This document shows positions 17,073 through 35,975 of a stretch of DNA of 36,513 nucleotides, one piece after another (position 1 is the stretch's first letter; every line of letters starts with the position of its first letter). A program made the translations under genes and the position numbers. The stretch is from Myxococcales bacterium (lineage in GTDB: Bacteria; Myxococcota_A; Polyangia; Polyangiales; Polyangiaceae). Under the pieces are notes generated by a model, which saw only the letters and a program-made list of their open reading frames with translations, was not told the origin of the DNA and did not search any database. The stretch lies in assembly GCA_030590865.1 (NCBI GenBank), contig JAUVCD010000004.1:1-36513 (forward strand). The letters are read 5' to 3'.

Positions 17073-20000
17073 TCATCTCGCAGCAGTCTCTGTCCCGTGC
17101 GTGACGGCCACGGCGAGCTCCGACTCGGTCACCCCATAGAGTCGTCTGACCCGCTTGTCGATCTGTGCCTGAATCTTCGCTATCGAAGTCCGGGTCCCGG
17201 CCTGTTGTTGCGCCACCTCCAGGCGCTCCGCTTCGACCTTGCTCAGGGACGTCGCTGCGAGGTCGCCTAGCTGCGACTCTTGGGTGTCCAAGTCTCGCGT
17301 CAGCTCGACCAGCTGGTCTGCCAGGGTCTCCAGCTGGCGGGCGACATCCCCATGGGTCTGTGGGTCGTAGTGGGGGATCGGAAGGCGCTCGACCTGGTTC
17401 TTCGGCAGGAAGTACTTTCGGCCCCGGCGACTTATTTTGAGCGCAAAGTAGGCCGCCATTACCTCGGAATTGAGGAAGCCGAGCAGCACCCGGGGTGACC
17501 AAGATGGTTGCCTTGGCTTGATGAGGTAGACGTTGGCCTCGGCGACCAACCCCCGAGGCGCGTAGGCGAACTCGTTTGATGCCGGCCACTTGGAGCAGGC
17601 GATCAGCTCGCCGTCAAACAAGCTCTCCTCCCGCGGCCAATGCAGAGAGAACCACGGCAGCTTACCCTGTTGGCATTCGCGCTTGTGCTCGAGGATGGGG
17701 CGAAAGCGCTTCAGATGTCGACCTACCGCGGGCAGGCTGTCGAGATCGGTGTCTTTCGTCACGTACAAGAGGTTCGTTGCCGGTTCCTTCGCCACGTACT
17801 TGCGAATGTCCGACGCCTTGACCAGGGGTTTGACGCATCCTCGTTCGGCCTGGGATAGGTCCAGCCCGTCCCGCTCACTGTCGGTCAGACAGAAGATGCC
17901 CTGGCCTAGCCCAATATCCGCTTCCTTGACCTCGACAGCCGAGAGCAGTTTCAGGTTCCGGCTGCTCACCCGGTCTGCGCCGGTGACGATGCCTTGCCGC
18001 ACCGACCAGCTTTCGCCCAGCGGGGGCAACTTGCTCAGGCGCTCGACCAAGGCGGCTGCCTCGCTGTGGAGCCTCAGCGACCAGGGCCCCGCGGCAAGCG
18101 CCTCATTGTCGGTCGCGCTGATGAACACAGAAATGAGCTCGTCGTCGTAGCCCGGTGCATCGGCGTGCTCGCTGATGTGGGCACAAAGCCTGTCGAGGGC
18201 TTGATCGGTGGACCGAGCCTCTGGCGCACCTTTCACGTGCACGACCGTGATCGGGCCTGTGCGAGGCTCCGAGCAGCGCCGCTCGAGCACGAAGACCATG
18301 TTGGTCTGTCCTGGAGCGTGCCGAAATAATCTGACGTCGTCGAAGAACACGACCGACAGAACGACCGCGTGGCTGGCCACGTACTCCCTGAGCGATTGCG
18401 CCCCATCCGCCTCGAGCCAGTAGCTCGTCGTGATGAAACCGAGCCTTCCTCCTTCTTCCAGCTTGCTCAGGCCGAGAATGATGAAGAAGTACAGGTAGTC
18501 CATCTTCCCCCGGTAATACTGTTTCCAGTAGGGGAACCGTTCCAGCGTCTGTCGAAACAACTCTTTGTGGTCGTCCTCGCGGATATAGGGAGGGTTCGCG
18601 CAGCAATAGGAGAACGACGCATCATCATTGAGGTCTCGCAGAAGCTGCTCTTTGCCAACATCTCGTGGGTTGATGGCGTGATCGATGCCGAGACGTGCCT
18701 CCTCGTCCTCACTCAGCGGTGGAGACGCCGGGGTATGCAGGCGCAGCGCATTGCACTGCACCACGCCCATGGTGGTCCGGGTCTCAGGTGCATTGCGATG
18801 ATGGTCCGACCATTGCTTGATGACCGGAGTGAGCTGAATCAGCAGGTTTGCCTCGGTCACGACATAGGCGAACGGGCTGATCTCTGCGCCGCGGAAGCCA
18901 TTGATGACCGCGGTTCTCAACGCCGCGATGTCGTCATGACTATCGTAGTCAATGCCGCCGTGCAGGCGCAGCCTCCGAATGGCTTCTGAAAGGAAGCGCC
19001 CCGAGCCTGTCGCGGGATCGAAGACTTTGCGCACTTGGCGTTTCTCGGACAATCCCTCGTGTTCGAACCGCCACATGGCGCGCGGGTTGTCATAACCGAC
19101 CAAATCCCAAATGAGGCGGACGACTGGGGCCGGACTGTAGTATTGCCCCTTGGTCTTCTTATCGACCCGATCGAGCATCTCTTCGTACACCGTGCCGAGC
19201 ACATCGTGGTCCAGCCGCTGCAATGGAAAGTCAGCGAGAATATGAAGGACCTCGGTGAGCGTGGCTGGCGACGATTGGTACCATGTGTAGTTGTTGGGCG
19301 TGGTGAACAGCCACGCGTGGTGCCGCCCGGCGAGGGAGAAGGCCTCGCGCAGCACTTCTTCGATTCGCTGGTCCCGGCATTCGAGCGAGCGGCGCAGCTC
19401 ATCGCCGTAGAGCACATTGCGCTCCATGAAGCGATGATCCCCCCAGAAGCGCACCAGCAGGATGCGAATGAGCGCGAACCAAGCGACACGATGGTGATAC
19501 GTCCGCAGGGCACGGCGACCGAAAGGAACGGTGGTCGGCGCCGTCAGCAGCGCCTTCAGATCAGCGTCCTTCTCCTGCGGCTGCGGGGCATAGCCGAGCT
19601 CCACGCGGGTGTTGAACAGCTCTGCCTCGATTCGCGCCTGCCTGGCGGTATCGATCCGGCGCTCGACGTCTTTGACAAGTGCAGTCTGATGGGTACGAAC
19701 GTCACGAACGAGCAGCCGCAGAATGCGATGAAGGGCCTGGCGGAGATTCTTCGGCCTGAGTTCCTCCTTGCCCGTCCACGGCGAGAGTTGCGTCAACGCC
19801 TTCAGCTGTTCTTCGGTGCTGAGCTCTCGGTGGGCGAAGGCCGCCACGAAGCGTAGGAAACAGCGGGTGTTTTCTGAGTCGAGGCAACGATCGCCTAGCT
19901 CACGGTACTCTGTGTAGAGCCTGCTGAAGCTGAAATCGTAGCACCCTGTCTCGAGGTCCCTGCCTGCCTCGTAGACCGTGGCCGCCCGCATGTTCAGCAT

Positions 20001-20366
20001 GATCCAATAGCGGTTCTGGACCGAATGGATGGCCCGTTCGCCCTGCGGGCCCGGTTGGACCAGGTCCACAACGTCGCTTCCCTTGGTGTCGAAAACGAAG
20101 GGGTGAGTTTGGCGATCCGCTGGCACGAAGCGTGGGCTGTCGTCGGAGCCGCCACTGAGGTCCCCATAGAGCGTTACACCAGGGTCGAAGCCGAGTACGC
20201 GGGTGGCGAAATTGCGAAACAGTACCGGGCGGATGAGCGCGACTTCATCCGGTCGAGCCCCGGTCATGTAGCTCAAGTAGTCGTAGGCCTTGCCATTGGA
20301 ATGGGCGGCATAGTCCGGCTGATCGAGAATGCTGATCGTGTCCCGGATGGCTCGCTTGTGGTCCAT
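17073..20366 (-). CDS. Type IIG-like restriction-modification enzyme (N6-adenine methyltransferase of Eco57I class with probable N-terminal nuclease domain)
   Basis: ATG at 20366 (ORF track start 20459 is TTG). GQYYSPAPVVRLIWDLV, motif I VFDPATGSGRFLSEAI, motif IV CCANPPYIRED; N-terminal PFVFDTKGSDVVDL resembles a D...(D/E)xK nuclease strand; C-terminal target-recognition-like half. Confidence 0.85.
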   Translation of the reverse strand: MDHKRAIRDTISILDQPDYAAHSNGKAYDYLSYMTGARPDEVALIRPVLFRNFATRVLGFDPGVTLYGDLSGGSDDSPRFVPADRQTHPFVFDTKGSDVVDLVQPGPQGERAIHSVQNRYWIMLNMRAATVYEAGRDLETGCYDFSFSRLYTEYRELGDRCLDSENTRCFLRFVAAFAHRELSTEEQLKALTQLSPWTGKEELRPKNLRQALHRILRLLVRDVRTHQTALVKDVERRIDTARQARIEAELFNTRVELGYAPQPQEKDADLKALLTAPTTVPFGRRALRTYHHRVAWFALIRILLVRFWGDHRFMERNVLYGDELRRSLECRDQRIEEVLREAFSLAGRHHAWLFTTPNNYTWYQSSPATLTEVLHILADFPLQRLDHDVLGTVYEEMLDRVDKKTKGQYYSPAPVVRLIWDLVGYDNPRAMWRFEHEGLSEKRQVRKVFDPATGSGRFLSEAIRRLRLHGGIDYDSHDDIAALRTAVINGFRGAEISPFAYVVTEANLLIQLTPVIKQWSDHHRNAPETRTTMGVVQCNALRLHTPASPPLSEDEEARLGIDHAINPRDVGKEQLLRDLNDDASFSYCCANPPYIREDDHKELFRQTLERFPYWKQYYRGKMDYLYFFIILGLSKLEEGGRLGFITTSYWLEADGAQSLREYVASHAVVLSVVFFDDVRLFRHAPGQTNMVFVLERRCSEPRTGPITVVHVKGAPEARSTDQALDRLCAHISEHADAPGYDDELISVFISATDNEALAAGPWSLRLHSEAAALVERLSKLPPLGESWSVRQGIVTGADRVSSRNLKLLSAVEVKEADIGLGQGIFCLTDSERDGLDLSQAERGCVKPLVKASDIRKYVAKEPATNLLYVTKDTDLDSLPAVGRHLKRFRPILEHKRECQQGKLPWFSLHWPREESLFDGELIACSKWPASNEFAYAPRGLVAEANVYLIKPRQPSWSPRVLLGFLNSEVMAAYFALKISRRGRKYFLPKNQVERLPIPHYDPQTHGDVARQLETLADQLVELTRDLDTQESQLGDLAATSLSKVEAERLEVAQQQAGTRTSIAKIQAQIDKRVRRLYGVTESELAVAVTHGTETAAR

Positions 20367-20688
20367 TGGAGACTGCCAGCCCGCGTTGACCGGACCCGTT
20401 GATTGCCGTAGAGGCCAGGCAATCGAAGCTCGAGTATCAGTTTCTGGTGCAGCTGACAAGCAAGGCCTGAGCCCATCATTTTTCCTCCAATGCCCACCTC
20501 CGGCTGGGCGTGATCAGGTGCCGAGGAAGGTGGCTCGTGGCGGCGGAGGACGAGTTGTCGGGCCGGTAGTCTGGAGAGGGAACCGTGCTTGCATCACTCG
20601 AGCTGTGGCTCCACAATCGGTGGCGCCGGCGGCACCGGACACCGGTGGGTCGGTGGGAGCGGGTGTCGATCTGCAGAGAGACTCGGCG

Positions 20689-24564: not shown

Positions 24565-24795
24565 GTCAAGAAGCGTGCCATCTGCCGCTGCTACCCCGAG
24601 TTGGCGGCAGGCTGACCCGCCGCCAGGCGGTGCTTGGCGGTCCTGTGCTTGCCGCTCGTGACCCCGGTCGCGGGCCACCATTCACCTCTGATTGACGCGC
24701 GATCCAGGTTGCTGGAGAACTGACTCTAGCGGTCCAGGTCGTGGGTGGCGCGATGCGCTGCTTCGAGGTGTCCACAACAGGTAGGCCAACCAACG

Positions 24796-25743
24796 ATGAG
24801 TAGTATCAGCATCCGCACGGACAAAGACGACTACACTGGCGGAGAACTCGTCATAGGGGCCGTGGTGTTGGAGCTCGATGAGCCGATCCCGGCTCGTGGG
24901 GTGCGCATTCGGTTCTCTGGTTCCGAGCGCGCCCTGTGGTCGGCCGCACCGGGTCGCGACCAATCTAATTACGTGGACGAGCGCAAGCTCTTCGACACTG
25001 AAGAGACGCTGCTCGGCAAGCCAAGCCTGGCCTTCGGTGAGGTGCTCAAAGACGCACTCAAAGGGCTCTTCTCGAAAGACCATTACCAGGTCATCAAAGC
25101 CGGCACCCACGAGTACTCTTTCTCCTTCGAGCTGCCGGAAGGGCTTCCAGGGGATTACGAGTCTCCTCGCGGCTCGTCCATTCGTTACGAGCTCACCGCC
25201 TATGTCGACGTTCCTTTGCGCATCGATTTGGAGGCGTGCAAGCGGCTGACGGTCTACGAGACGGCCGACCAGAGCGATGTCGAGCCGGCTGGGGCAGACC
25301 ACAGCCGAACCTTCATGTTCGAAGCTTCGGCGCCCCTCGATTTGTCGGTCGCACTCGACCGTCAGCATTTTGTTCCCGGGGAGAGCACCAGCTGTCACGT
25401 GACGGTCTGCAACAAGTCGTCCAAGACCATTGAGGCGATCCACCTGTTGGTACGACAGATCGAGGATCTGGTGGTCGATGGCATTGCTCACGAGAACAGC
25501 TTCGACGTGCCAGCGACCAAGGTTCGGGACCGAGAATTTCCGCAGGGCGAGTCGGTCGATTTCGATATCCCGGTCGAGCTACCCAAGCATCTATACGCGT
25601 CGATACCCTCAGGGGTCTTGGTCAAGGTTCGCTACCAGTTGGTGGTCAAGCTCGACATCCCCTGGGCTCGGGACCTCGAGGTCGGCGTGCCGCTGGTTCT
25701 TCACGAGAAGGCGGGCATGCCCAGCGGACCGACCGCTGCCTGA
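24796..25743 (+). CDS. Arrestin-like / Spo0M-like beta-sandwich protein
   Basis: SISIRTDKDDYTGGELVIGAVVLELDEPIPARGVRIRFSGSE; SFSFELPEGLPGDYE; SSIRYELTAYVDVPL; second domain LDLSVALDRQHFVPGESTSCHVTVCNKSSKTIEAIHLLVRQIE. Confidence 0.8.
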   Translation: MSSISIRTDKDDYTGGELVIGAVVLELDEPIPARGVRIRFSGSERALWSAAPGRDQSNYVDERKLFDTEETLLGKPSLAFGEVLKDALKGLFSKDHYQVIKAGTHEYSFSFELPEGLPGDYESPRGSSIRYELTAYVDVPLRIDLEACKRLTVYETADQSDVEPAGADHSRTFMFEASAPLDLSVALDRQHFVPGESTSCHVTVCNKSSKTIEAIHLLVRQIEDLVVDGIAHENSFDVPATKVRDREFPQGESVDFDIPVELPKHLYASIPSGVLVKVRYQLVVKLDIPWARDLEVGVPLVLHEKAGMPSGPTAA

Positions 25744-28353
25744 TCAACCCGCGGTGTCGACGTCGTCGCCGACGAGCTTGCGCAGGTCCTTTTCGATCTT
25801 GGCTCGATAACGTCTCACCAGGGCTCGGTTGGCCATGATCATATCGAGCTGGCGTGTGTGGATGGTCAAATAGCCCAATAGCTTGAGACGGCTCTTCATG
25901 AAATCCGGGCCATAGTTCTCGATGCGTGCCAGCAACGAGTCCTCCTTCACGTCGACGCGGAAACCGAAGGTCTCCAATATCGCCTGAACGAAGAGAACCC
26001 TGTTGAGCCGGCGGTCGTAGTCGGCCGCACCACCTTTGAAATGGAAAGCGACGTAGTTCTCGGTGGGTCGCTCACTGACCAGGGCTTCCACGGTGGAGTA
26101 GTGAAAACCCAGCCTGGAGGTGAAGCTGCAATAGTTCTTGGACACCATGAAGTAGTTCCGGTCGGCGTAGCGCGAGCGCACGCCCAAGGTCAGAGCCGGG
26201 TTCCTGGTGGCCTCGAACATGACGGACATGAACCCGCCGCCATCCATGGCCGGTGGCCCTGCCCAAGGCACGGCGATGACTCCCTCCCAGAGCGCCAACA
26301 TGGGAATCGAGGCGATGTTGTCCAGCTGGACGTATTTGCCCTCCACTTCTTCGTAGAAGCCGTCGTCCAGGTTCAGGACCCACCATTGCATCGCGACCTC
26401 GCCGCGCAGCTGTTTACTGGAGCGCTCTGGAAAGCGATGGTCCTTGCCGAAGCGGAACATCTCCTCTACCGCCTTCTCGTGGCAGAAGCGCGTGAGGTCG
26501 TGCAACGTTCGGCAGTTGTCGGACTTGAATTCCGGGGCGTCGGGGTCCAATAGGTTCAGCGGGACGATGTGATGAGCGGCTCGTTGCAACACCTCGTAGA
26601 CCGGACTTCCCTCCATCCGGTTAGGCGGCTTGGACCCCCGGTGCAGTAGCGCCTCGACCTGTCCGCGAAGTACACGGGAGTTGTCCGCGTCGACGGTAAC
26701 CAGGGCTCCCTGGGAGAGGTCATCGAGCGCCCCGGCGGCACCGAAGATCGCCGGGATATCCAACTCCCTGGCCACACTGGCCAGATGGCTCGCCATGCTG
26801 CCGTGCTCAGTGACGACGGCCGCCGCCCTGGGAAGAAGGGGGGCCCAGCGGGGTAGGGCTTGGGCTGCCACCAGCACGCCCCCCACCGGAAACTGCAGGG
26901 CGTCGGCACCCCGCGCGACCTTGAAGACCGGACCGGAGCCTGCCCCCGGGCTAGCGGTGACGCCTCCCTGCACGATGATGCGGTCCGGCTTCACGGTTAG
27001 CTTTGCAGGAGGCTCACGGGTCACCAGCCCCAGCGGCCGGCATTGGAGCAGCCATAGGTTACCGTCCTCGGCTAATGCCCATTCGATGTCCTGCGGCGCG
27101 TCGTAATGCTCCTCCAGCTGTTGCAATAGCCGACCGACTTCCAGGGCCTGTGCATCGGTCAGGGAGGCTTGGCACTGCTGTTCGGGGGATAGGGCCCGTC
27201 GCGCCACTCCTTCCTTGCCGCGGCATTCGTAAGTCAGCGTCTTACAGGCAATCTCTCGCTGCACAATCACGGCGACGTCATCCCGAGAGATGACGAACAA
27301 ATCGGGGGATACCGAGCCGTCGACCACGCATTTGGGCAAGCCCCAGGCGGCGTTGATCACCATGGTGCGTGCCGTCATGTCCACTGGATTCCGGCTGTAG
27401 CCGACGCCGCCGGATACTGGGTTCACCATGCGCATCACGCCGACACACATGGCCACGTCTCTATCCCGGATGCCGCGACTCCGTCGGTAGCTTATGGCGG
27501 GCAAGCTGTACTTGCTGGCCACAATTTCTTTGTATGCCTCGACAATGCTCGCAGCGCTTACGTGGAGGATGGAACGGTACTGCCCCGCAAAGGACGCGCC
27601 GGGCTGGTCTTCACCCAGTGCGCTGCTGCGCATGGCAACCTCGACACCCTTGCCTTCCGTCTCCTCCAACCGTCGATAGTGCTCAGTGATGGCTCCGGTC
27701 ACGTCGGCAGGCACTTCGGCGTTGATGATCAACTGCTGAAGCGAAGCGCTGAGAGCGAAGCGCTGGTCGAGCCGCTCTACGTTGGTCGCTTGGATGCGGC
27801 GGTCGATCTCCGGTTCCAGGCCGTTTTCCTCCATGAACCGCTGGTAGGCATGAGCCGTGACGACAAAGCCGTTCGGTACCGCCAACTGCACCACATTCTT
27901 CATCTCTCCCAGGTTGGCGACCTTTCCGCCGACCTGGGGGGCTTGGGCTCTGGTGACCTGGGCCAGATCGATGGCCAATGGTCCCTCTGCCGCCAGGCGA
28001 CGCTCTTGGAGAATTGGCGTTATCGCACCCTGGATTGTCTTGAAGCGGTCGTAGAGCTCTTCGTATTTGGCCGGGGCAAGCTCGTTCAGGTGCCGGCAAA
28101 TCTGCCACACATCAGTGGAGATCTTGGTGCATTGGCCCGACACGAAGTCCATCCCGAAGGACCGCGACCCTCGTAGCGCGTCTTCGATCTGCGCCATGAT
28201 CTCCAAGGCATCGTTGTTGGCGTAAAGCAGCAGCTTGAAGTGACGATAGCGGTCCTTGAACGCCAGCCTCAGCTCGTCGGCCTCATGCTCCTCGAGGGGC
28301 TTCGGCCGACCGAACAGATCTCGAAGGAAAGTCCACATTCCGTCGCAAGCCAC
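25744..28353 (-). CDS. PEP synthase / pyruvate phosphate dikinase-like enzyme: N-terminal helical region, PPDK_N ATP-grasp domain, phosphohistidine domain, unfamiliar C-terminal region
   Basis: VGGKVANLGEM, VAMRSSALGEDQPGASFAGQYRSIL, NPVSGGVGYSRNPVD, ASPGAGSGPVFKV, TEHGSMASHLASVARELDIPAIFGA. Confidence 0.88.
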   Translation of the reverse strand: MACDGMWTFLRDLFGRPKPLEEHEADELRLAFKDRYRHFKLLLYANNDALEIMAQIEDALRGSRSFGMDFVSGQCTKISTDVWQICRHLNELAPAKYEELYDRFKTIQGAITPILQERRLAAEGPLAIDLAQVTRAQAPQVGGKVANLGEMKNVVQLAVPNGFVVTAHAYQRFMEENGLEPEIDRRIQATNVERLDQRFALSASLQQLIINAEVPADVTGAITEHYRRLEETEGKGVEVAMRSSALGEDQPGASFAGQYRSILHVSAASIVEAYKEIVASKYSLPAISYRRSRGIRDRDVAMCVGVMRMVNPVSGGVGYSRNPVDMTARTMVINAAWGLPKCVVDGSVSPDLFVISRDDVAVIVQREIACKTLTYECRGKEGVARRALSPEQQCQASLTDAQALEVGRLLQQLEEHYDAPQDIEWALAEDGNLWLLQCRPLGLVTREPPAKLTVKPDRIIVQGGVTASPGAGSGPVFKVARGADALQFPVGGVLVAAQALPRWAPLLPRAAAVVTEHGSMASHLASVARELDIPAIFGAAGALDDLSQGALVTVDADNSRVLRGQVEALLHRGSKPPNRMEGSPVYEVLQRAAHHIVPLNLLDPDAPEFKSDNCRTLHDLTRFCHEKAVEEMFRFGKDHRFPERSSKQLRGEVAMQWWVLNLDDGFYEEVEGKYVQLDNIASIPMLALWEGVIAVPWAGPPAMDGGGFMSVMFEATRNPALTLGVRSRYADRNYFMVSKNYCSFTSRLGFHYSTVEALVSERPTENYVAFHFKGGAADYDRRLNRVLFVQAILETFGFRVDVKEDSLLARIENYGPDFMKSRLKLLGYLTIHTRQLDMIMANRALVRRYRAKIEKDLRKLVGDDVDTAG

Positions 28354-28362
28354 CCCAAGCGG

Positions 28363-28788
28363 CTATTTCCCTGCCTGTTTGGTCGGGCGGCGCCCCTTGC
28401 TGCGCTCTTCCCGGAGGCGCTTTTTCTCACAGGCATCCTGGGCCTTGTAGAGAAGATCGTCGATGTCCGCGGGCTTCAGGAGGTAGTCGAAGGCTCCGAG
28501 CTCCATTCCTTCGAGCGCCACTTCGACGCTGGCGTGGCCGCTCAGCAAGATGACCTCTACCAGGGGATGACGGCGCTTCAGCTCCCGCAAGGTCTCAATG
28601 CCGTCGAGGCCCGGCATCCTGACGTCCAACACCACCACGTCCACCAGCCTCTGGGCTAGGGAGTCCAAGGCTTCCTGCCCGCTGTGGGCCACGGCAGCGT
28701 CCACCCCGCGTTTGCGCATCCGCTTGGCCAGGGTGTCGGTCAGGTCCGCCTCATCATCGACGAGCAGAACGCGAAAGTTGTTCACCAT
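28363..28788 (-). CDS. Single-domain response regulator (receiver only)
   Basis: MVNNFRVLLVDDEADLTDTLAKRM...VVVLDVRMPGLDG...VILLSGHASVEVALEGMELGAFDYLLKPAD; strong SD AAGGAGGTGACC before ATG. Confidence 0.93.
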   Translation of the reverse strand: MVNNFRVLLVDDEADLTDTLAKRMRKRGVDAAVAHSGQEALDSLAQRLVDVVVLDVRMPGLDGIETLRELKRRHPLVEVILLSGHASVEVALEGMELGAFDYLLKPADIDDLLYKAQDACEKKRLREERSKGRRPTKQAGK

Positions 28789-28850
28789 GGTCACCTCCTT
28801 CGTACCGGCGGTGCTCTGACACGACCCACACCACCGTTCGGCTCGCCAGG

Positions 28851-29060
28851 CTACATGTTGCCTGACCGTCGCACCAGCATCCGGGCCTCCGCCAGGCACT
28901 GGCGCTCCTCCTGTTCCCACTTGCGCTGCCGCGCCGCTGCCAGCTTGGCTAGCAGCTCGGTGACGTCAGCCAGCTTGTTCAGATAGTCAATAATGCCGAG
29001 TGTCATGCCCGCGACGGCGGTATCGACGGCGCCGCGACCGGTGAGCAAGAGCAGCTCTAC
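28851..29060 (-). pseudogene. C-terminal remnant of a receiver domain
   Basis: VELLLLTGRGAVDTAVAGMTLGIIDYLNKLADVTELLAKLAAARQRKWEQEER aligns by eye with the second half of the neighbouring receivers; DD and phosphoacceptor D halves absent; KP replaced by KL. Confidence 0.7.
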
Positions 29061-29086
29061 GGTTGGGCTGGACACGTTGCCGCCAC

Positions 29087-29776
29087 TCAATGCTCCAGCC
29101 TGAAGCCCGCTCCCTCGAACATGAACAGGACGGCAAATCCGTACCACACGGTATAGAGGACGTAGAAGGCCAGGGAGGCCACGACGACACCCCAGCGATC
29201 ACCGATGTTCTGCGGCTCGACGCGATAATAGTTGTAGGAGCACTCCACGCCCTTCTTCTTCACCGTGGCCACGAACTTGGCTTCGTCGAACTTCTTGCCG
29301 CGCTTCAGGTCTTTGTCCATGGCATGAAGGATCGTCCACCAGGTGTACTGGGCCAGGCGCTCGCCCATCTGGTGCCGTTTCGAGAGCGCTGCGCCGTCGT
29401 TGTCGAACATCAGCTGCGAGTCAGCCAGGCAGGCTTCGAGAATGACACCGAGATCGCCCTCTAGGGACACCGTGGTCCCTGCGACCGACGTCTTGCCGCC
29501 AGAGAGGGTGAGGATCTTGGCAGCCCGTTCGGCCTCGGCGGCATCCTTCATCGCGAGCGAAAGGCTCACGCTACGTCCGGCGTAGGTCTTGTTCTTCTCT
29601 TTGAGATCCGGGATGTAGTAGGCAGAGCCCTTTGAGATCGAGTTGTAGAGGTTGTCCAAGTAGTCGAGGCCGTTCTGTCCCTCGAAGAGGGGCATGAATA
29701 TTGCGACCATGACTCCAAGAAAGACGGCCATCATGCTGGCGCCGACGGCGAAGCGCTTCTTCGCGATTTGGCTCAT
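29087..29776 (-). CDS. Hypothetical membrane protein with N- and C-terminal TM helices
   Basis: FAVGASMMAVFLGVMVAIFMPLF and WGVVVASLAFYVLYTVWYGFAVLFMF; 4-nt overlap with the upstream TauE gene. Confidence 0.8.
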   Translation of the reverse strand: MSQIAKKRFAVGASMMAVFLGVMVAIFMPLFEGQNGLDYLDNLYNSISKGSAYYIPDLKEKNKTYAGRSVSLSLAMKDAAEAERAAKILTLSGGKTSVAGTTVSLEGDLGVILEACLADSQLMFDNDGAALSKRHQMGERLAQYTWWTILHAMDKDLKRGKKFDEAKFVATVKKKGVECSYNYYRVEPQNIGDRWGVVVASLAFYVLYTVWYGFAVLFMFEGAGFRLEH

Positions 29777-31056
29777 GACGTCACCTCGTTGCCACGGAGC
29801 TTCCCAAGGTTGCGCACAAAGGTCCCGATCACCCAGACGCCGAAGCCGCCGATTACGATGAAGAAGGCCCAGACGCCGATGCTGTCGAGGACAGCGGTGG
29901 TGCCCTTCGATAAGCCGATGACTTCCATTTCGCTGAGCTTCCCAGGCAAGGCGAAGGCCCGGTTCACGAAGCCGGCGAGGACGGCCATGGCATAAAAACC
30001 TCGAATGGTGATGCCTGGCACGACCTTGGTGACCATGGCCCCGATCTGGATGCCGAATAGGGATCCGATGAGCATGCCCATAGCGAGAGTGAAGAAGATG
30101 AAGCCGTAGATGGCGTACTGGCTGATGGCCGCGTAGCCAGCGGTGAAGACGATCTGAAAGATGTCAGTACCGACCGTGGTCATCGACGACACGCCCAGGG
30201 TGTAGACGAAGATGGGGAAGGTCAGAAAGCCGCCGCCGACACCCATGATGGCGGCTGCGAATCCCACCAGAAACCCGGAAAGAACGAGAAAGACGGCCGA
30301 TATGCTGCGTCCCCCTGGCAGCAGGCTCTGGTCAAAGGTGATCATGGGCGGAATTTTCACCGCCTGGAGCTTGGTCGCGACGTTGCCGAGCTCCATGGCG
30401 TCGTCGATGTCATGCCCCGGATCGGCGATGAGCCTCTTTCTCGCTTTCAGAAAATCACCAAGCGCATAGCTGCCCAACCCGCCGAGCATCAGCACGTAGA
30501 TGCCGGTGATGAAGGCGTCGCTCAACACCGGGTTGATTTCGTAGAGCCATCGATTGATGGCGCCGCCGGCGGTGGCCCCACCAATGGCGCCGACCAAGAA
30601 CGTGACCGCCAGAGGCACCGAGACGTTGCCTAGCTTGCGATGCAGCACGGTGCCCATGATGGCTTTGGCAAAGATGTGGAACAGATCGGTGCCCACCGCC
30701 AGGATGCCTTTGATGCCCGCACTCATCAGGGCCGGGGCAATGATGAAGCCGCCGCCGGCGCCAATACAACCTGTGATGAGGCCGGCTGCGAGGCCGATGA
30801 AGATCGAGGCGACGAAGATGTCGAGGTTATAGAACGCCGGGCTGTAGGCCTTCTTCCCGCCGAGGACGTCAGGCAGAACCTCGCCAACCTCATCGGCAAA
30901 TGCCACGCCTCCGAGCAGGACGAACACCAACAAGAGGCAGAGGATGAAAATCCTCTTCCGGTCGCCGAGGATGGTCCTGGACATTTGGACTTCCCAGCGA
31001 GCGTGCGCTCGAGTGGCGACCATGAGGAGGTGGCCACAGTTTCTCAGGAAGGTCAT
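29773..31056 (-). CDS. Sulfite exporter TauE/SafE-family permease (start could be ATG at 30984)
   Basis: GLAAGLITGCIGAGGGFIIAPALMSAGIKGILAVGTDLFHIFAKAIMGTVLHRKLGNV and duplicated GFAAAIMGVGGGFLTFPIFVYTLGVSSMTTVGTDIFQIVFTAGYAAI. Confidence 0.92.
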   Translation of the reverse strand: MTFLRNCGHLLMVATRAHARWEVQMSRTILGDRKRIFILCLLLVFVLLGGVAFADEVGEVLPDVLGGKKAYSPAFYNLDIFVASIFIGLAAGLITGCIGAGGGFIIAPALMSAGIKGILAVGTDLFHIFAKAIMGTVLHRKLGNVSVPLAVTFLVGAIGGATAGGAINRWLYEINPVLSDAFITGIYVLMLGGLGSYALGDFLKARKRLIADPGHDIDDAMELGNVATKLQAVKIPPMITFDQSLLPGGRSISAVFLVLSGFLVGFAAAIMGVGGGFLTFPIFVYTLGVSSMTTVGTDIFQIVFTAGYAAISQYAIYGFIFFTLAMGMLIGSLFGIQIGAMVTKVVPGITIRGFYAMAVLAGFVNRAFALPGKLSEMEVIGLSKGTTAVLDSIGVWAFFIVIGGFGVWVIGTFVRNLGKLRGNEVTS

Positions 31057-31132
31057 AGGGTAGATCTCCAATGATGAAAGCGGTTTGACGCCCCCGCTCG
31101 ATTGAGTCGTGCTCTCCTGGTTGCAGAGAGCC

Positions 31133-31537
31133 CTAGTGTGCCGTCTCCGGCGGTTCGCGGCCGGCGGCCGCATTGATGTGCTTCAGCAGGGTCTCCAGAT
31201 CACAAGGCTTGCTGAGATAGTCGTAGGCTCCCTTGGCGATGCCCTCTTTGGCAGCCTGTGCCGAGCCATGGCCGGTGAGAATGATCACCGCCAGGTCGGG
31301 GTCCATCTTCTTGAAGATCTCCAGAACCTCGATGCCGTCCATGCCTTCCATTCTGAGATCGACGATGGCCACGTCAAAATCGTTCTTTCTCAGGACCTGG
31401 ATGCCATCGTCGCCAGAACGGACCGTGGTGACCTCTATGCCCCGTTTGGTTAACCGCTTGGAGAGGACATCGAGGTATCCGGCCTCGTCATCGACGACCA
31501 GCAAGCGCAGTGCTGCAGGGGGTGTTGGCGTGCTCAT
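31133..31537 (-). CDS. Single-domain response regulator
   Basis: LRLLVVDDEAGYLDVLSKRL...VAIVDLRMEGMDGIEVL...VIILTGHGSAQAAKEGIAKGAYDYLSKPCD. Confidence 0.93.
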   Translation of the reverse strand: MSTPTPPAALRLLVVDDEAGYLDVLSKRLTKRGIEVTTVRSGDDGIQVLRKNDFDVAIVDLRMEGMDGIEVLEIFKKMDPDLAVIILTGHGSAQAAKEGIAKGAYDYLSKPCDLETLLKHINAAAGREPPETAH

Positions 31538-31578
31538 CCTTGTTTTGTTCCTAGCTCCCGATCCCGGGTAGTCGTCGC

Positions 31579-32019
31579 TTAGTCCCCGCGCCGCAAGGCG
31601 ATGCGCATCGCCTTGGCCTCCTCGATCTTGAGCTCCTGCGCCCGCTTCTTGTCGCAAGCATCGCCGATCTTGGACATCATCACGTCCATCGGGGCGGGCT
31701 TCATGAGGTAGTCGAAAGCGCCGGCGCGCATGCCCTCGATCGCCGACTCCACCGTGGCGTGGCCGGTCAGCATGACCACCTCCACCAGGGGGTGCTTGCG
31801 CTTGATGACTGCGAGGACCTCGAGGCCATCCATTCCCGGCATCTTCACGTCCAGGACGACGACGTCGATGGCTTGTTCGGATGTTTGGGCGAGGCGAGCG
31901 AGGGCCTCCTCGCCGCCAAAGGCAGAGAAGACTTTGAGGCCTCGCTTGTTGAGACGTTTGGCCATGGTCTCGACGAAACCGACTTCGTCGTCGACCAGTA
32001 GAATGACGGGATTCTTCAT
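31579..32019 (-). CDS. Single-domain response regulator
   Basis: VILLVDDEVGFVETMAKRL...VVVLDVKMPGMDGLEVL...VVMLTGHATVESAIEGMRAGAFDYLMKPAP; 4-nt overlap with the kinase gene. Confidence 0.95.
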   Translation of the reverse strand: MKNPVILLVDDEVGFVETMAKRLNKRGLKVFSAFGGEEALARLAQTSEQAIDVVVLDVKMPGMDGLEVLAVIKRKHPLVEVVMLTGHATVESAIEGMRAGAFDYLMKPAPMDVMMSKIGDACDKKRAQELKIEEAKAMRIALRRGD

Positions 32020-33788
32020 GACGCGACTCCTGAGTCTGGCGCTGAGTCCAGTCGGAGCTCAGCGCCGGCGGTGGTCGATGGGCGCCTCGCATCCGTCTGC
32101 GGCCGGTCCGCGCCGAGCGGCAGGCGGATGGCGAAAACGGTGCCCCGGAACTTCTCGCTCTCTACGCGGATGGTGCCCCCCAGTTTCTTGATGATGCCGT
32201 AGCAAATGGACAGGCCCAGGCCGGTGCCTTGGCCCACAGCCTTGGTGGTGTAGAAGGGATCGAAGATGCGTGGAAGATTGGCCTTGGCGATGCCTGCGCC
32301 GGTGTCGCGCACGTCCAGCAGCAAGTGGTTTTCCTCCGACTGGGTCGTGATGGTCAAGGTTCCCCCGGTCTTCTCCATGGCATCGACCGCATTGTTGATG
32401 AGGTTGAGGAGCACTTGCTGAAGCTCTGTTGGGGAGGCGGAGAGTCGCGGTAAGCTCGCATCGAGGAGCGTAATGACCTCGATGTTCGAGTAACGGGTCT
32501 TCTGCCCCAGAACGCCGAGCACCTCCTCGATCAGCTCGTTCAGCTGGAAGTCCTTCACGTTGGGATCGGTCTTTCGCGCAAAGGAGAGCAGCTTATGGGT
32601 GATCTCCTTGCAGCGGCCGCCCTGGGTCCCGATCTGCCCGACCGCCCGCGTAATCTCAGCGAGGTTCTCGGGGCTGGTGGCATCGTCGTCGCCGAGGATG
32701 TCCTCTATCCAACCGGCTTCCTCCACCATGATGGCCACTGGGTTGTTGATCTCGTGGGCAATGCCAGCTGCGAGCTCGCCGATCGAGGCGAGTCGACCGG
32801 CCTCGACTACCTCGTCCCTCATGATTTGCTTCTCCGTGTCCGATGTGGCGATGCGGCGGGCCATTCGCCGAATGAGGATGAAGGCGATCCCATTGACGGC
32901 AATGCCGAAGGCAATCAACAAATAGAGCGCGCGGCGCATGGCGTCGTTCAGCGACGCGTAGGCGTCACTGGCTTGCTGGTCGTAGCACAAGAGCCAGCGT
33001 GGCCCGTTGAGCGGCGACACGGCAATGAGAGCGTCATTGCCCAAAGCGTCCTCGCGCTCCTCGATGAGGACCTTGCCCGGTGCGAGTTTCCGTTTGACGA
33101 GCTCGGCATAGGGGCCGCGGCTGACGATGACCTCATGTTGAGGTTTGGTCTGGAGCTCGCCTGAACGGTTCAAGATGAAGGCGAAGCCGGTCTGCCCCAT
33201 TCGGATGTTGGTCACCAATGCACTGAAGGCCTGAAAGTCGATCGTGGACCGGACGATCCAGTCTTTCCCTTGCCAGGGCTTCTTGACGGCGATGATGAAG
33301 TGAGGTGTGCCGCGCAGGCCGGTGAAGACGTCGCTGACGTAGTGGTCACTCTTCTTCACCTCCGAGAACCAAGTCGTGCCGGCATAGTTGGCCTTGGAGA
33401 GGTTGAATGGACCCGAATAGGCCTGCTGGACGCCCTCGGGATCGATGAGTCCGAGATCGACGAAGGCGCCACTGTATTCATCACGCAAGATCGCCAGCTT
33501 CTCACGAAGGAATGACTCGGACGACAGCTCCTCCACCGTGTGCCACCGAGCCAGCGTGCGGATGTTCCCGGACCGGTCGTCGAGAAAGTTGTCGATCCGC
33601 TTGCTGTGATTGCCGACCAGCACGGAGAGATGATCGGCAACCCGGCTTTGGTACGCTCCACCCAGGTCGTGGACCACCAGCGAAGCGACCAAGACGACCG
33701 GTCCGACGGAGAGCGCTACGAAGACCAGCTGGAGCCGCAACGACAGGACGGCAGCCTTCCGCTGGCTAGGGGTCTTGTCGGACAACAT
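32016..33788 (-). CDS. Membrane sensor histidine kinase with periplasmic sensor (Cache-like) region
   Basis: N-terminal TM VALSVGPVVLVASLVV; second TM ALYLLIAFGIAVNGIAFILI; H-box LAAGIAHEINNPVA; N-box LLNLINNAVDAM; G-boxes DVRDTGAGIA and GTGLGLSICYGIIKKLGG. Confidence 0.95.
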   Translation of the reverse strand: MLSDKTPSQRKAAVLSLRLQLVFVALSVGPVVLVASLVVHDLGGAYQSRVADHLSVLVGNHSKRIDNFLDDRSGNIRTLARWHTVEELSSESFLREKLAILRDEYSGAFVDLGLIDPEGVQQAYSGPFNLSKANYAGTTWFSEVKKSDHYVSDVFTGLRGTPHFIIAVKKPWQGKDWIVRSTIDFQAFSALVTNIRMGQTGFAFILNRSGELQTKPQHEVIVSRGPYAELVKRKLAPGKVLIEEREDALGNDALIAVSPLNGPRWLLCYDQQASDAYASLNDAMRRALYLLIAFGIAVNGIAFILIRRMARRIATSDTEKQIMRDEVVEAGRLASIGELAAGIAHEINNPVAIMVEEAGWIEDILGDDDATSPENLAEITRAVGQIGTQGGRCKEITHKLLSFARKTDPNVKDFQLNELIEEVLGVLGQKTRYSNIEVITLLDASLPRLSASPTELQQVLLNLINNAVDAMEKTGGTLTITTQSEENHLLLDVRDTGAGIAKANLPRIFDPFYTTKAVGQGTGLGLSICYGIIKKLGGTIRVESEKFRGTVFAIRLPLGADRPQTDARRPSTTAGAELRLDSAPDSGVAS

Positions 33789-34195: not shown

Positions 34196-35383
34196 TCACC
34201 TGGTGATCGTTGCGCCGCCCAAGTCCTCGAGCAGCTGTTCACCGCTGAGCTGGGTAGCGGAGGCGTGGCCGAAGTAGCGCATGAGACCGGCCTGCTCGTA
34301 GGCAGGTTGGATGCGCGGGCCGAGCAGCCCGATCTCCCGCAGGTTGGGCACGAGTCGTTTGAACATGACGTGCCGGAACTCCGCCATGCCAGGGGCGGTC
34401 ACGATGAGCTCGCGCCAGTCGGCGCGGGACAGACGCCCCTCGAACCATTCCTCGAATACCTCGTAGGCCATGAAACGATTGCGCATGAGCAACGCCACTT
34501 CGAAAGCCCAATCCTCTCGCTCCCGCCGCTCCGCCTCGCTGAGCTGGTGTCGCAGGTGGTCTCTCAGCGCGAGCACGCCATAGTGGACGTGTCGAGCCTC
34601 ATCCATGATGACCATCTTCAGCATGCTTCGCAGCAGCGGTTCTTCGGTCAGCGAGTAGAGGGTGCTGAAGGCACCGAGCGCCAGCCCTTCGACCATGATT
34701 TGCATACCCAGGAACTTCATGTCCCAGCGACTGTCTCGCATCAGTGCGTCGATGATGACAAACAGGTTGTCATTGATTTGATAGAGCTTGCCGAGCTTGT
34801 CATCGAGGTAGCGGTGGAACACTTCCACGTGGCGCGCTTCGTCCATGACCTGGGTCGCGCCGAAGAGCTTGCCGTCGAACAGCGGAACCGCCTCGGTGAC
34901 CTGCGCAGCGGCCATCAGCGCCCCTTGCTCACCATGAAGAAACTGGCTGAGTAGCCAGCCGACGACGCTGTACAGAAACTCCTGTTTCTCTCGAGCGGTC
35001 AGGTGGATACCGCGCCGATCGAGGAAGTCAAAGTCGATGAATTTTGACGGTACCAGGGGAACTTCAGGATTGAGCGGATCGACGTGGGTGTTCCAGGCGA
35101 GATCGGTCTCGCCGTCCCATTGGCCTCGCTTGGCACGCTGGTAGAGTTGCCGCAGCTCGGCATGGTCCTCCGGGTAGGTCCATTCGAGGAAGGCCTCGTG
35201 GCCTGCCGGAAACCGGGTGGGCACTCCCTGCTTTCCTCGCTTGAGCAACAGTCCGCGCAGGGCGGAGGGGCCGAGAGAGGTCAAGACGCTATGGTGGCGC
35301 GCCTGTAGCGCGAGCTCCAGCATCTCGTGGTAGCTGTCCAGGGCGTTTCGCACTCTGTCAGGTAAGAGGTGGCTTATGTCCAT
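34196..35383 (-). CDS. Ferritin-like di-iron protein (putative oxygenase/oxidase)
   Basis: Two DEARH motifs (ATQVMDEARHVEVFHRYL, VIMDEARHVHYGVLAL), each preceded by a helix Glu (FLHGEQGAL, IMVEGLALGAF). Confidence 0.8.
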   Translation of the reverse strand: MDISHLLPDRVRNALDSYHEMLELALQARHHSVLTSLGPSALRGLLLKRGKQGVPTRFPAGHEAFLEWTYPEDHAELRQLYQRAKRGQWDGETDLAWNTHVDPLNPEVPLVPSKFIDFDFLDRRGIHLTAREKQEFLYSVVGWLLSQFLHGEQGALMAAAQVTEAVPLFDGKLFGATQVMDEARHVEVFHRYLDDKLGKLYQINDNLFVIIDALMRDSRWDMKFLGMQIMVEGLALGAFSTLYSLTEEPLLRSMLKMVIMDEARHVHYGVLALRDHLRHQLSEAERREREDWAFEVALLMRNRFMAYEVFEEWFEGRLSRADWRELIVTAPGMAEFRHVMFKRLVPNLREIGLLGPRIQPAYEQAGLMRYFGHASATQLSGEQLLEDLGGATITR

Positions 35384-35447: not shown

Positions 35448-35975
35448 TCATCCGCCTACCGCCAGGACCACCGCCTCGAGAGGCCGGCTCACGCAAGGCA
35501 AGACATAGCCCTCGGCGGCCTCCTCATCGGTCAGGCAATTGGGTTGTTTGTGCTTCACCCGCCCATCGAGCAGTTTTGAACGGCAGGTGCCACATCCCCC
35601 CATGGTGCAGGAGAACGCCATCGGGACCTCGGCTGCCAGGCCCGCTTCCAGGAGGGTTTGGCCTGGCTGCACCGTGACGTGGTGCGAACGGCCCTTGGCT
35701 AGCATTTCTGCTGGCAGCGGCTGGTTGGGCATGACCGCTTTGCGAGCGTCGTCGATGACCCACCGATCGTCGGGTGAGGTGGCTGCTGATGCAGGTGTCA
35801 CCCTCTCCTGGCGACCGTGGTCCGTCCCGCTCACCTGGGACGGCGGCACTGTGGTCGGGCGAACCCTGATCAACGGTGGTGGATGTCGCCCGAACACGCC
35901 GGAGAGGACGACTCGGGCGTCGCGACCGAGCTGCTGCCATCGCTCCCGAAATCGCCGAAAGTGGACGTCCAACAT
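35448..35975 (-). CDS. 2Fe-2S plant-type ferredoxin-domain protein with N-terminal extension
   Basis: HVTVQPGQTLLEAGLAAEVPMAFSCTMGGCGTCRSKLLDGRV...EEAAEGYVLPCVSRPLEAVVL; CxxxxCxxC plus distal Cys. Confidence 0.9.
   Translation of the reverse strand: MLDVHFRRFRERWQQLGRDARVVLSGVFGRHPPPLIRVRPTTVPPSQVSGTDHGRQERVTPASAATSPDDRWVIDDARKAVMPNQPLPAEMLAKGRSHHVTVQPGQTLLEAGLAAEVPMAFSCTMGGCGTCRSKLLDGRVKHKQPNCLTDEEAAEGYVLPCVSRPLEAVVLAVGG

Follow-up and report, generated by a model that had tools for sequence, protein, structure and literature searches.

The closest described counterpart of the locus analysed here is a Desulfovibrio gene cluster linked to nitrate resistance (DVU0251-DVU0245 in D. vulgaris and Dde_0597-Dde_0605 in D. 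alaskensis), which encodes a TauE transporter, a small protein, a PtxB-like protein, a histidine kinase (HK), a receiver-only protein, a dikinase with PPDK_N and mobile domains and a phosphatase (PMC4001038). Insertions in the TauE, receiver, dikinase and other genes of this cluster confer nitrate resistance, and the mutants are mildly sick on thiosulfate; its authors proposed a leaky thiosulfate transporter, and pooled and single-mutant data conflict for some of the genes (PMC4001038). Separately, a survey of TSUP proteins proposes members of this superfamily as alternative sulfate importers in sulfate reducers (PMC5840216). Here we describe a related gene block from a Myxococcales bacterium, in a stretch of 36,513 nucleotides (assembly GCA_030590865.1, contig JAUVCD010000004.1, positions 1 to 36,513), hereafter the window. 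The block occupies positions 25744-33788 of the minus strand and encodes an HK, three receiver-only response regulators (RR1, RR2 and RR3), a TauE/SafE permease (TauE), a two-transmembrane protein (TM2), a receiver remnant and a dikinase-like enzyme. Its parts, their conserved order, the joint occurrence of TM2 with both dsrA and the dikinase, and the intact catalytic motifs of the receivers and the dikinase were computed directly. The arrangement is a recurring variant rather than a chance cluster, since related loci repeat the gene order and the receiver clades follow gene position.

As in the Desulfovibrio nitrate cluster, TauE, HK, receiver-only and dikinase genes stand together in the block, and a small uncharacterised protein is present in both. 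The block differs in having three receivers instead of one, an HK with a dCache sensor instead of sCache/HAMP/PAS domains, and neither the phosphonate-binding-type periplasmic protein nor the tyrosine phosphatase of the cluster. One locus from a sampled genome (L163) matches the nitrate cluster gene for gene and, judging by composition, order and gene sizes, is its putative counterpart; the dikinase of L163 aligns with that of the window at 31% identity over 854 aa (E 4e-111), C-terminal domain included. Text searches for the full parts set within one paper returned nothing beyond PMC4001038. The window's TauE also belongs to the same superfamily as the TSUP 'CysZ' clades (clade B with DVU2958), which is abundant in sulfate reducers; that survey is a transporter phylogeny, and the sections consulted describe no TM2, receivers or dikinase (PMC5840216).

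Gene organization of the block

Open reading frames and Pfam matches placed eight elements in the transcription order HK, RR1, RR2, TauE, TM2, remnant, RR3, dikinase, exactly as a first-pass annotation of the DNA had listed them, and both ATGA-type overlaps that it reported are present, each of 4 nt, at HK/RR1 and TauE/TM2. HK (32016-33788, 590 aa) combines an extracytoplasmic dCache_1 sensor with HisKA and HATPase_c domains, and its closest homologues lie at two syntenic loci, L124 and L123 (54-56% identity). The block contains no gene with a DNA-binding output domain, and a promoter scan was uninformative, its counts resembling those in shuffled sequences.

RR1 (31579-32019, 146 aa), RR2 (31133-31537, 134 aa) and RR3 (28363-28788, 141 aa, preceded by AAGGAGGTGA) each show a single significant domain, PF00072, which is the sole match above the cut-off in RR2 and RR3 and the sole match in RR1; the absence of output domains, claimed earlier from the translations, is thus confirmed by Pfam. 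All three keep the acidic pair, phospho-Asp, Thr/Ser and Lys of CheY-like receiver-only proteins (D-D-D-T-K in RR1). The remnant (28851-29087) is the C-terminal part of a receiver from which the phospho-acceptor half is missing; it matches PF00072 positions 68-110 only and resembles the C-terminal half of RR3 (46% identity over 56 residues, E 2.5e-14). In a receiver tree, three clades correspond to three gene positions, and the window contributes one member to each: RR2 falls within the second-position clade (support 100/99) and RR3 within the third-position clade (99/93), and RR1 clusters with receivers that come first in other loci, at a weakly supported fork (82/84).

TauE (29773-31056, 427 aa) is a TSUP permease with a conserved N-terminal extension; it scores 115.7 bits against PF01925 (gathering score 32.6), is 73-77% identical to homologues at syntenic loci and shows the duplicated TSUP motifs, with repeated G-x-GGG and AVGTD/TVGTD nearly invariant. 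TM2 (29087-29776, 229 aa) carries a soluble domain between its two helices and has no Pfam match, and a Pfam scan of 54 family members returned scattered weak matches and no consistent family. Its high-confidence AlphaFold model (pLDDT 90.9) places a mixed alpha/beta domain between two long helices, one at each terminus; a Foldseek search of this model against PDB gave no fold match at E<=0.001, and a sequence search of PDB gave chance-level matches only. Neither a second TM2 nor a second full-length dikinase was found elsewhere in the window's genome. The dikinase-like enzyme spans 25744-28338 (864 aa from the ATG at 28338, 869 aa from a GTG at 28353). Preferred start codons are at 31537 for RR2, 31056 for TauE, 28788 for RR3 and 28338 for the dikinase.

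Conservation of the neighbourhood

TM2 served as the marker for a survey of related loci. A contig scan found 158 relatives, of which the best 80, ranked by similarity to the window's TM2, were fetched; because of this ranking and the inclusion of close relatives, the resulting proportions describe the neighbourhood and not a random sample. The titles of the fetched records are nearly all Desulfobacteraceae, Desulfobacterales or Deltaproteobacteria. TauE lies directly upstream of TM2 in 64/67 of the fetched loci, a same-strand dikinase lies downstream in 38/60, and a receiver-only gene lies upstream in 38/54. Among the 39 loci with enough flank, all 39 contain TauE, 26 a close dikinase and 31 at least one receiver. 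At its fullest, the recurring order runs HK-RR1-RR2-RR3-TauE-TM2-dikinase; in a second form, a divergent receiver-HK-dikinase set comes after TauE-TM2.

Twenty further loci were taken from long contigs in an even draw of Desulfobacterota genomes. TauE adjoins TM2 in 20/20 of them, and the dikinase or its C-terminal domain is nearby in 12/20. Two of these loci, L123 and L124, have exactly the window's order, including the receiver between TM2 and the dikinase, the position that RR3 occupies in the window. Across the survey TauE-TM2 forms an unvarying core, around which the regulators differ from locus to locus. The first-pass annotation had suspected that deltaproteobacterial genomes, today classed as Desulfobacterota, have similar neighbourhoods; the survey bears this out, with synteny conserved mostly among sulfate-reducing members of that phylum, and the annotation's view of the block as one functional unit is supported. 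In the window's own phylum the gene set is rare, with TM2 found in 3/284 genomes.

The dikinase-like enzyme

The enzyme consists of an N-terminal domain of ~125 aa, an ATP-grasp domain, a phospho-His mobile domain and a conserved C-terminal domain of ~290 aa (the C-domain). Pfam scores are 320 bits for PPDK_N (PF01326) and 72.9 bits for the PEP-utilizers mobile domain (PF00391), and both the ATP-grasp motifs and the catalytic His 523 (GTG numbering) are invariant in 40 aligned dikinase sequences. In these two domains it resembles phosphoenolpyruvate (PEP) synthase, or pyruvate,water dikinase, and it matches NCBIfam PEP_synth at 340 bits and PDB 2ols and 9dae by profile. It differs at the C-terminus: no PEP-utilizers_C match was found by Pfam, so the usual PEP/pyruvate TIM barrel is absent, and its position is taken by the unnamed and highly conserved C-domain of ~290 residues. 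This domain has no Pfam match in any consistent set of members, and a Foldseek search with its model found nothing in PDB at E<=0.001, a negative that carries less weight because the model is only moderate (pLDDT 77).

Two standard assignments were rejected. As a PEP synthase the protein falls short of the TIGR01418 cut-off (340 bits against 739.75) and lacks PEP-utilizers_C. As a rifamycin phosphotransferase it reaches 239.9 bits against an NF041857 cut-off of 999, and its His domain comes after the ATP-grasp and before the C-domain, contrary to the order ATP-grasp, drug-binding, His of those enzymes. An apparent receiver-dikinase fusion (a 1833-aa frame in G379) was also discarded as proof of contact, the extra length being antisense to an HK and a receiver.

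The family occurs in further arrangements. At L159 (4963-12395), L160 (5777-13352) and L171 (4439-14689), dikinase homologues come in pairs, with HK and receiver genes lying in between or alongside, and TM2 does not adjoin them. At L156 (5769-11123; similarly L157, L158 and L161), a membrane-anchored protein is encoded directly upstream of a dikinase homologue and contains GAFTEA, a possible sigma-54 activator motif.

Co-occurrence with sulfate reduction and host genome

TM2 was found in 82/345 Desulfobacterota genomes. The dissimilatory sulfite reductase marker dsrA is present in 77/82 of these and in 86/263 genomes without TM2 (Fisher p=1.3e-24, relatedness ignored). In the window's phylum, dsrA exceeds the curated cut-off in 7/284 genomes, which include all three that carry TM2 (p=9e-6), two of these three sharing one genus; among genomes with TM2 loci, dsrA is above the cut-off in 40/50. 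The sulfur link suggested in the initial annotation is supported by this association. The dikinase follows TM2 as well: its C-domain occurs in 79/82 TM2-positive and 47/263 TM2-negative Desulfobacterota genomes, and the close form of the domain in 71/82 and 10/263, respectively.

The window's genome bin itself carries dsrA, dsrB and aprA (G000 contigs C491/L175, C756/L172 and C479/L173), with aprA split across two contigs. Its dsrA and dsrB adjoin a PRK12771-type oxidoreductase gene and a CobB-type gene; an 84-aa frame after dsrB, at the position expected for dsrD, has no Pfam match and was not confirmed as DsrD by Pfam. dsrAB are known in Myxococcota (PMC10591310), the phylum to which gene content also points for the window. 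The window contig belongs to a 9.5-Mb bin with 7% contamination, and its membership was checked through single genes and G+C: its rpoD has its nearest counterpart, at 63%, in a genome of the same genus within the set of relatives searched, and the G+C and third-position G+C (GC3) of the block are close to those of neighbouring genes. Since the closest homologues of HK, RR1 and RR2 were found in Desulfobacterota loci, the block was likely acquired horizontally.

Proposed mechanism and alternatives

The gene set probably controls the movement of a sulfate-like ion across the membrane. Our preferred reading, to which we give about an even chance of being right, is that dissimilatory sulfate reducers have in this block a self-contained module for anion transport, in which a two-component system and the dikinase control TauE-TM2. 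TauE would serve as the permease for a sulfate- or thiosulfate-type inorganic anion, with TM2 as its membrane partner. The dCache kinase would read an external signal and phosphorylate the three stand-alone receivers, which would act by protein contact on the dikinase, the TauE-TM2 complex or both, and not on DNA. The dikinase would move a phosphoryl group from ATP onto the His of its mobile domain and on to an acceptor bound by its C-domain, and this acceptor would set transporter activity. The outcome would be regulated anion movement. Uptake is favoured over export, given that the related mutants seem to keep nitrate out and show poorer growth on thiosulfate. Transport, its substrate and direction, the order of phosphotransfer and the transporter as the dikinase's target are all points that we infer. 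In a bolder version, which we regard as less likely than not, the block would exemplify a widespread control principle that has gone unrecognised: a phosphotransferase derived from a dikinase would be switched by stand-alone receivers and would gate the anion permease post-translationally, so that sulfate reducers could rapidly adjust anion entry, and TM2 and the C-domain would represent new families with new folds.

Several observations weigh against the module as drawn. Many TM2-TauE pairs have no adjacent kinase, receiver or dikinase (for example L106, L108 and L109). Beside TauE-TM2, the dikinase relative at L009 (1367-3079) lacks ATP-grasp and that at L116 (8164-9390) lacks both ATP-grasp and the mobile domain, which shows that phosphotransfer is not a feature of every locus; both retain the N- and C-terminal domains, and this retention beside TauE-TM2 suggests that these two domains have a binding role of their own. 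TM2 is absent from 86/163 dsrA-positive Desulfobacterota genomes, roughly half, and thus is not essential for sulfate reduction; dsrA was not seen in 5/82 TM2-positive genomes of that phylum, and the co-occurrence counts take no account of genome relatedness. As for the Desulfovibrio genetics, TauE of the nitrate cluster, compared through L163, is only distantly similar to the window's, and a TM2 profile did not match the L163 small protein, leaving any relatedness undetectable; the genetics therefore carry over via the dikinase and the parts list alone.

The first-pass annotation had proposed that the HK senses a periplasmic anion or sulfur compound and controls export together with a phosphate-transfer step. 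The pathway from HK through receivers and dikinase to the transporter stays plausible, as the dikinase tracks TM2 and mutants in the TauE, receiver and dikinase genes of the related cluster share a phenotype; the export direction did not hold up as well. If TauE-TM2 exported sulfite, sulfide or an organosulfonate, the kinase and receivers would turn on efflux under stress, and the named members of the Pfam family are indeed sulfite/organosulfonate exporters, and sulfite or sulfide stress would account for the dsrA association just as well. Nevertheless, the one line of genetic evidence, which comes from the related Desulfovibrio cluster, points to anion entry: loss of its TauE gives nitrate resistance and cluster mutants are mildly sick on thiosulfate, which fits uptake better (PMC4001038), and TSUP proteins are also proposed as sulfate importers of sulfate reducers in the survey cited above (PMC5840216). 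We therefore consider export unlikely.

It is quite improbable, in our estimate, that TauE-TM2 serves as a membrane co-sensor for a kinase, receiver and dikinase phosphorelay acting elsewhere in the cell to adjust respiration or gene expression. Such a role would suit the three stand-alone receivers, the sigma-54-type response regulators near many TM2 relatives, and the family dikinases that stand beside kinases and receivers without TM2 (L163, L171); it sits poorly with a transporter pair that is the invariant core among variable regulators, and with the lack of a DNA-binding output gene in the window's block. Nor do we expect the dikinase to be a co-regulated metabolic enzyme, acting on pyruvate/PEP or a sulfonate-phosphate, that processes the imported compound instead of controlling the transporter; we rate this quite unlikely. 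The conserved ATP-grasp and catalytic His and the strong whole-genome co-occurrence with TM2 are compatible with it, whereas the missing PEP/pyruvate TIM barrel, the persistence of relatives without ATP-grasp beside TauE-TM2 (L116, L009) and the repeated adjacency of family members to receivers and kinases speak against it.

The analysis connects one TSUP subgroup with TM2 as its constant partner, with a two-component system and with a distinctive dikinase, in a gene set that tracks dissimilatory sulfate reduction in two phyla, and it links the puzzling Desulfovibrio nitrate-resistance mutants to a broader class of systems. If the preferred reading is true, it offers a testable gene list for the control of anion uptake and for nitrate tolerance, of interest where nitrate is used to suppress oil-well souring.

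Other genes in the window

Convergent with the block, a plus-strand gene at 24745-25743 ends one base before the dikinase stop and encodes a bacterial protein containing Arrestin_N (79.5 bits) and Arrestin_C (68.2 bits), the two arrestin domains. On the minus strand, a large Eco57I/MmeI-like DNA methyltransferase of 1128 aa with a TaqI-like specificity domain (17073-20459) is likely a restriction-modification or phage-defence protein. Also on the minus strand, a 395-aa protein without a Pfam match that looks ferritin-like by eye (34196-35383) is adjoined by a 2Fe-2S ferredoxin-domain protein (35448-35975).

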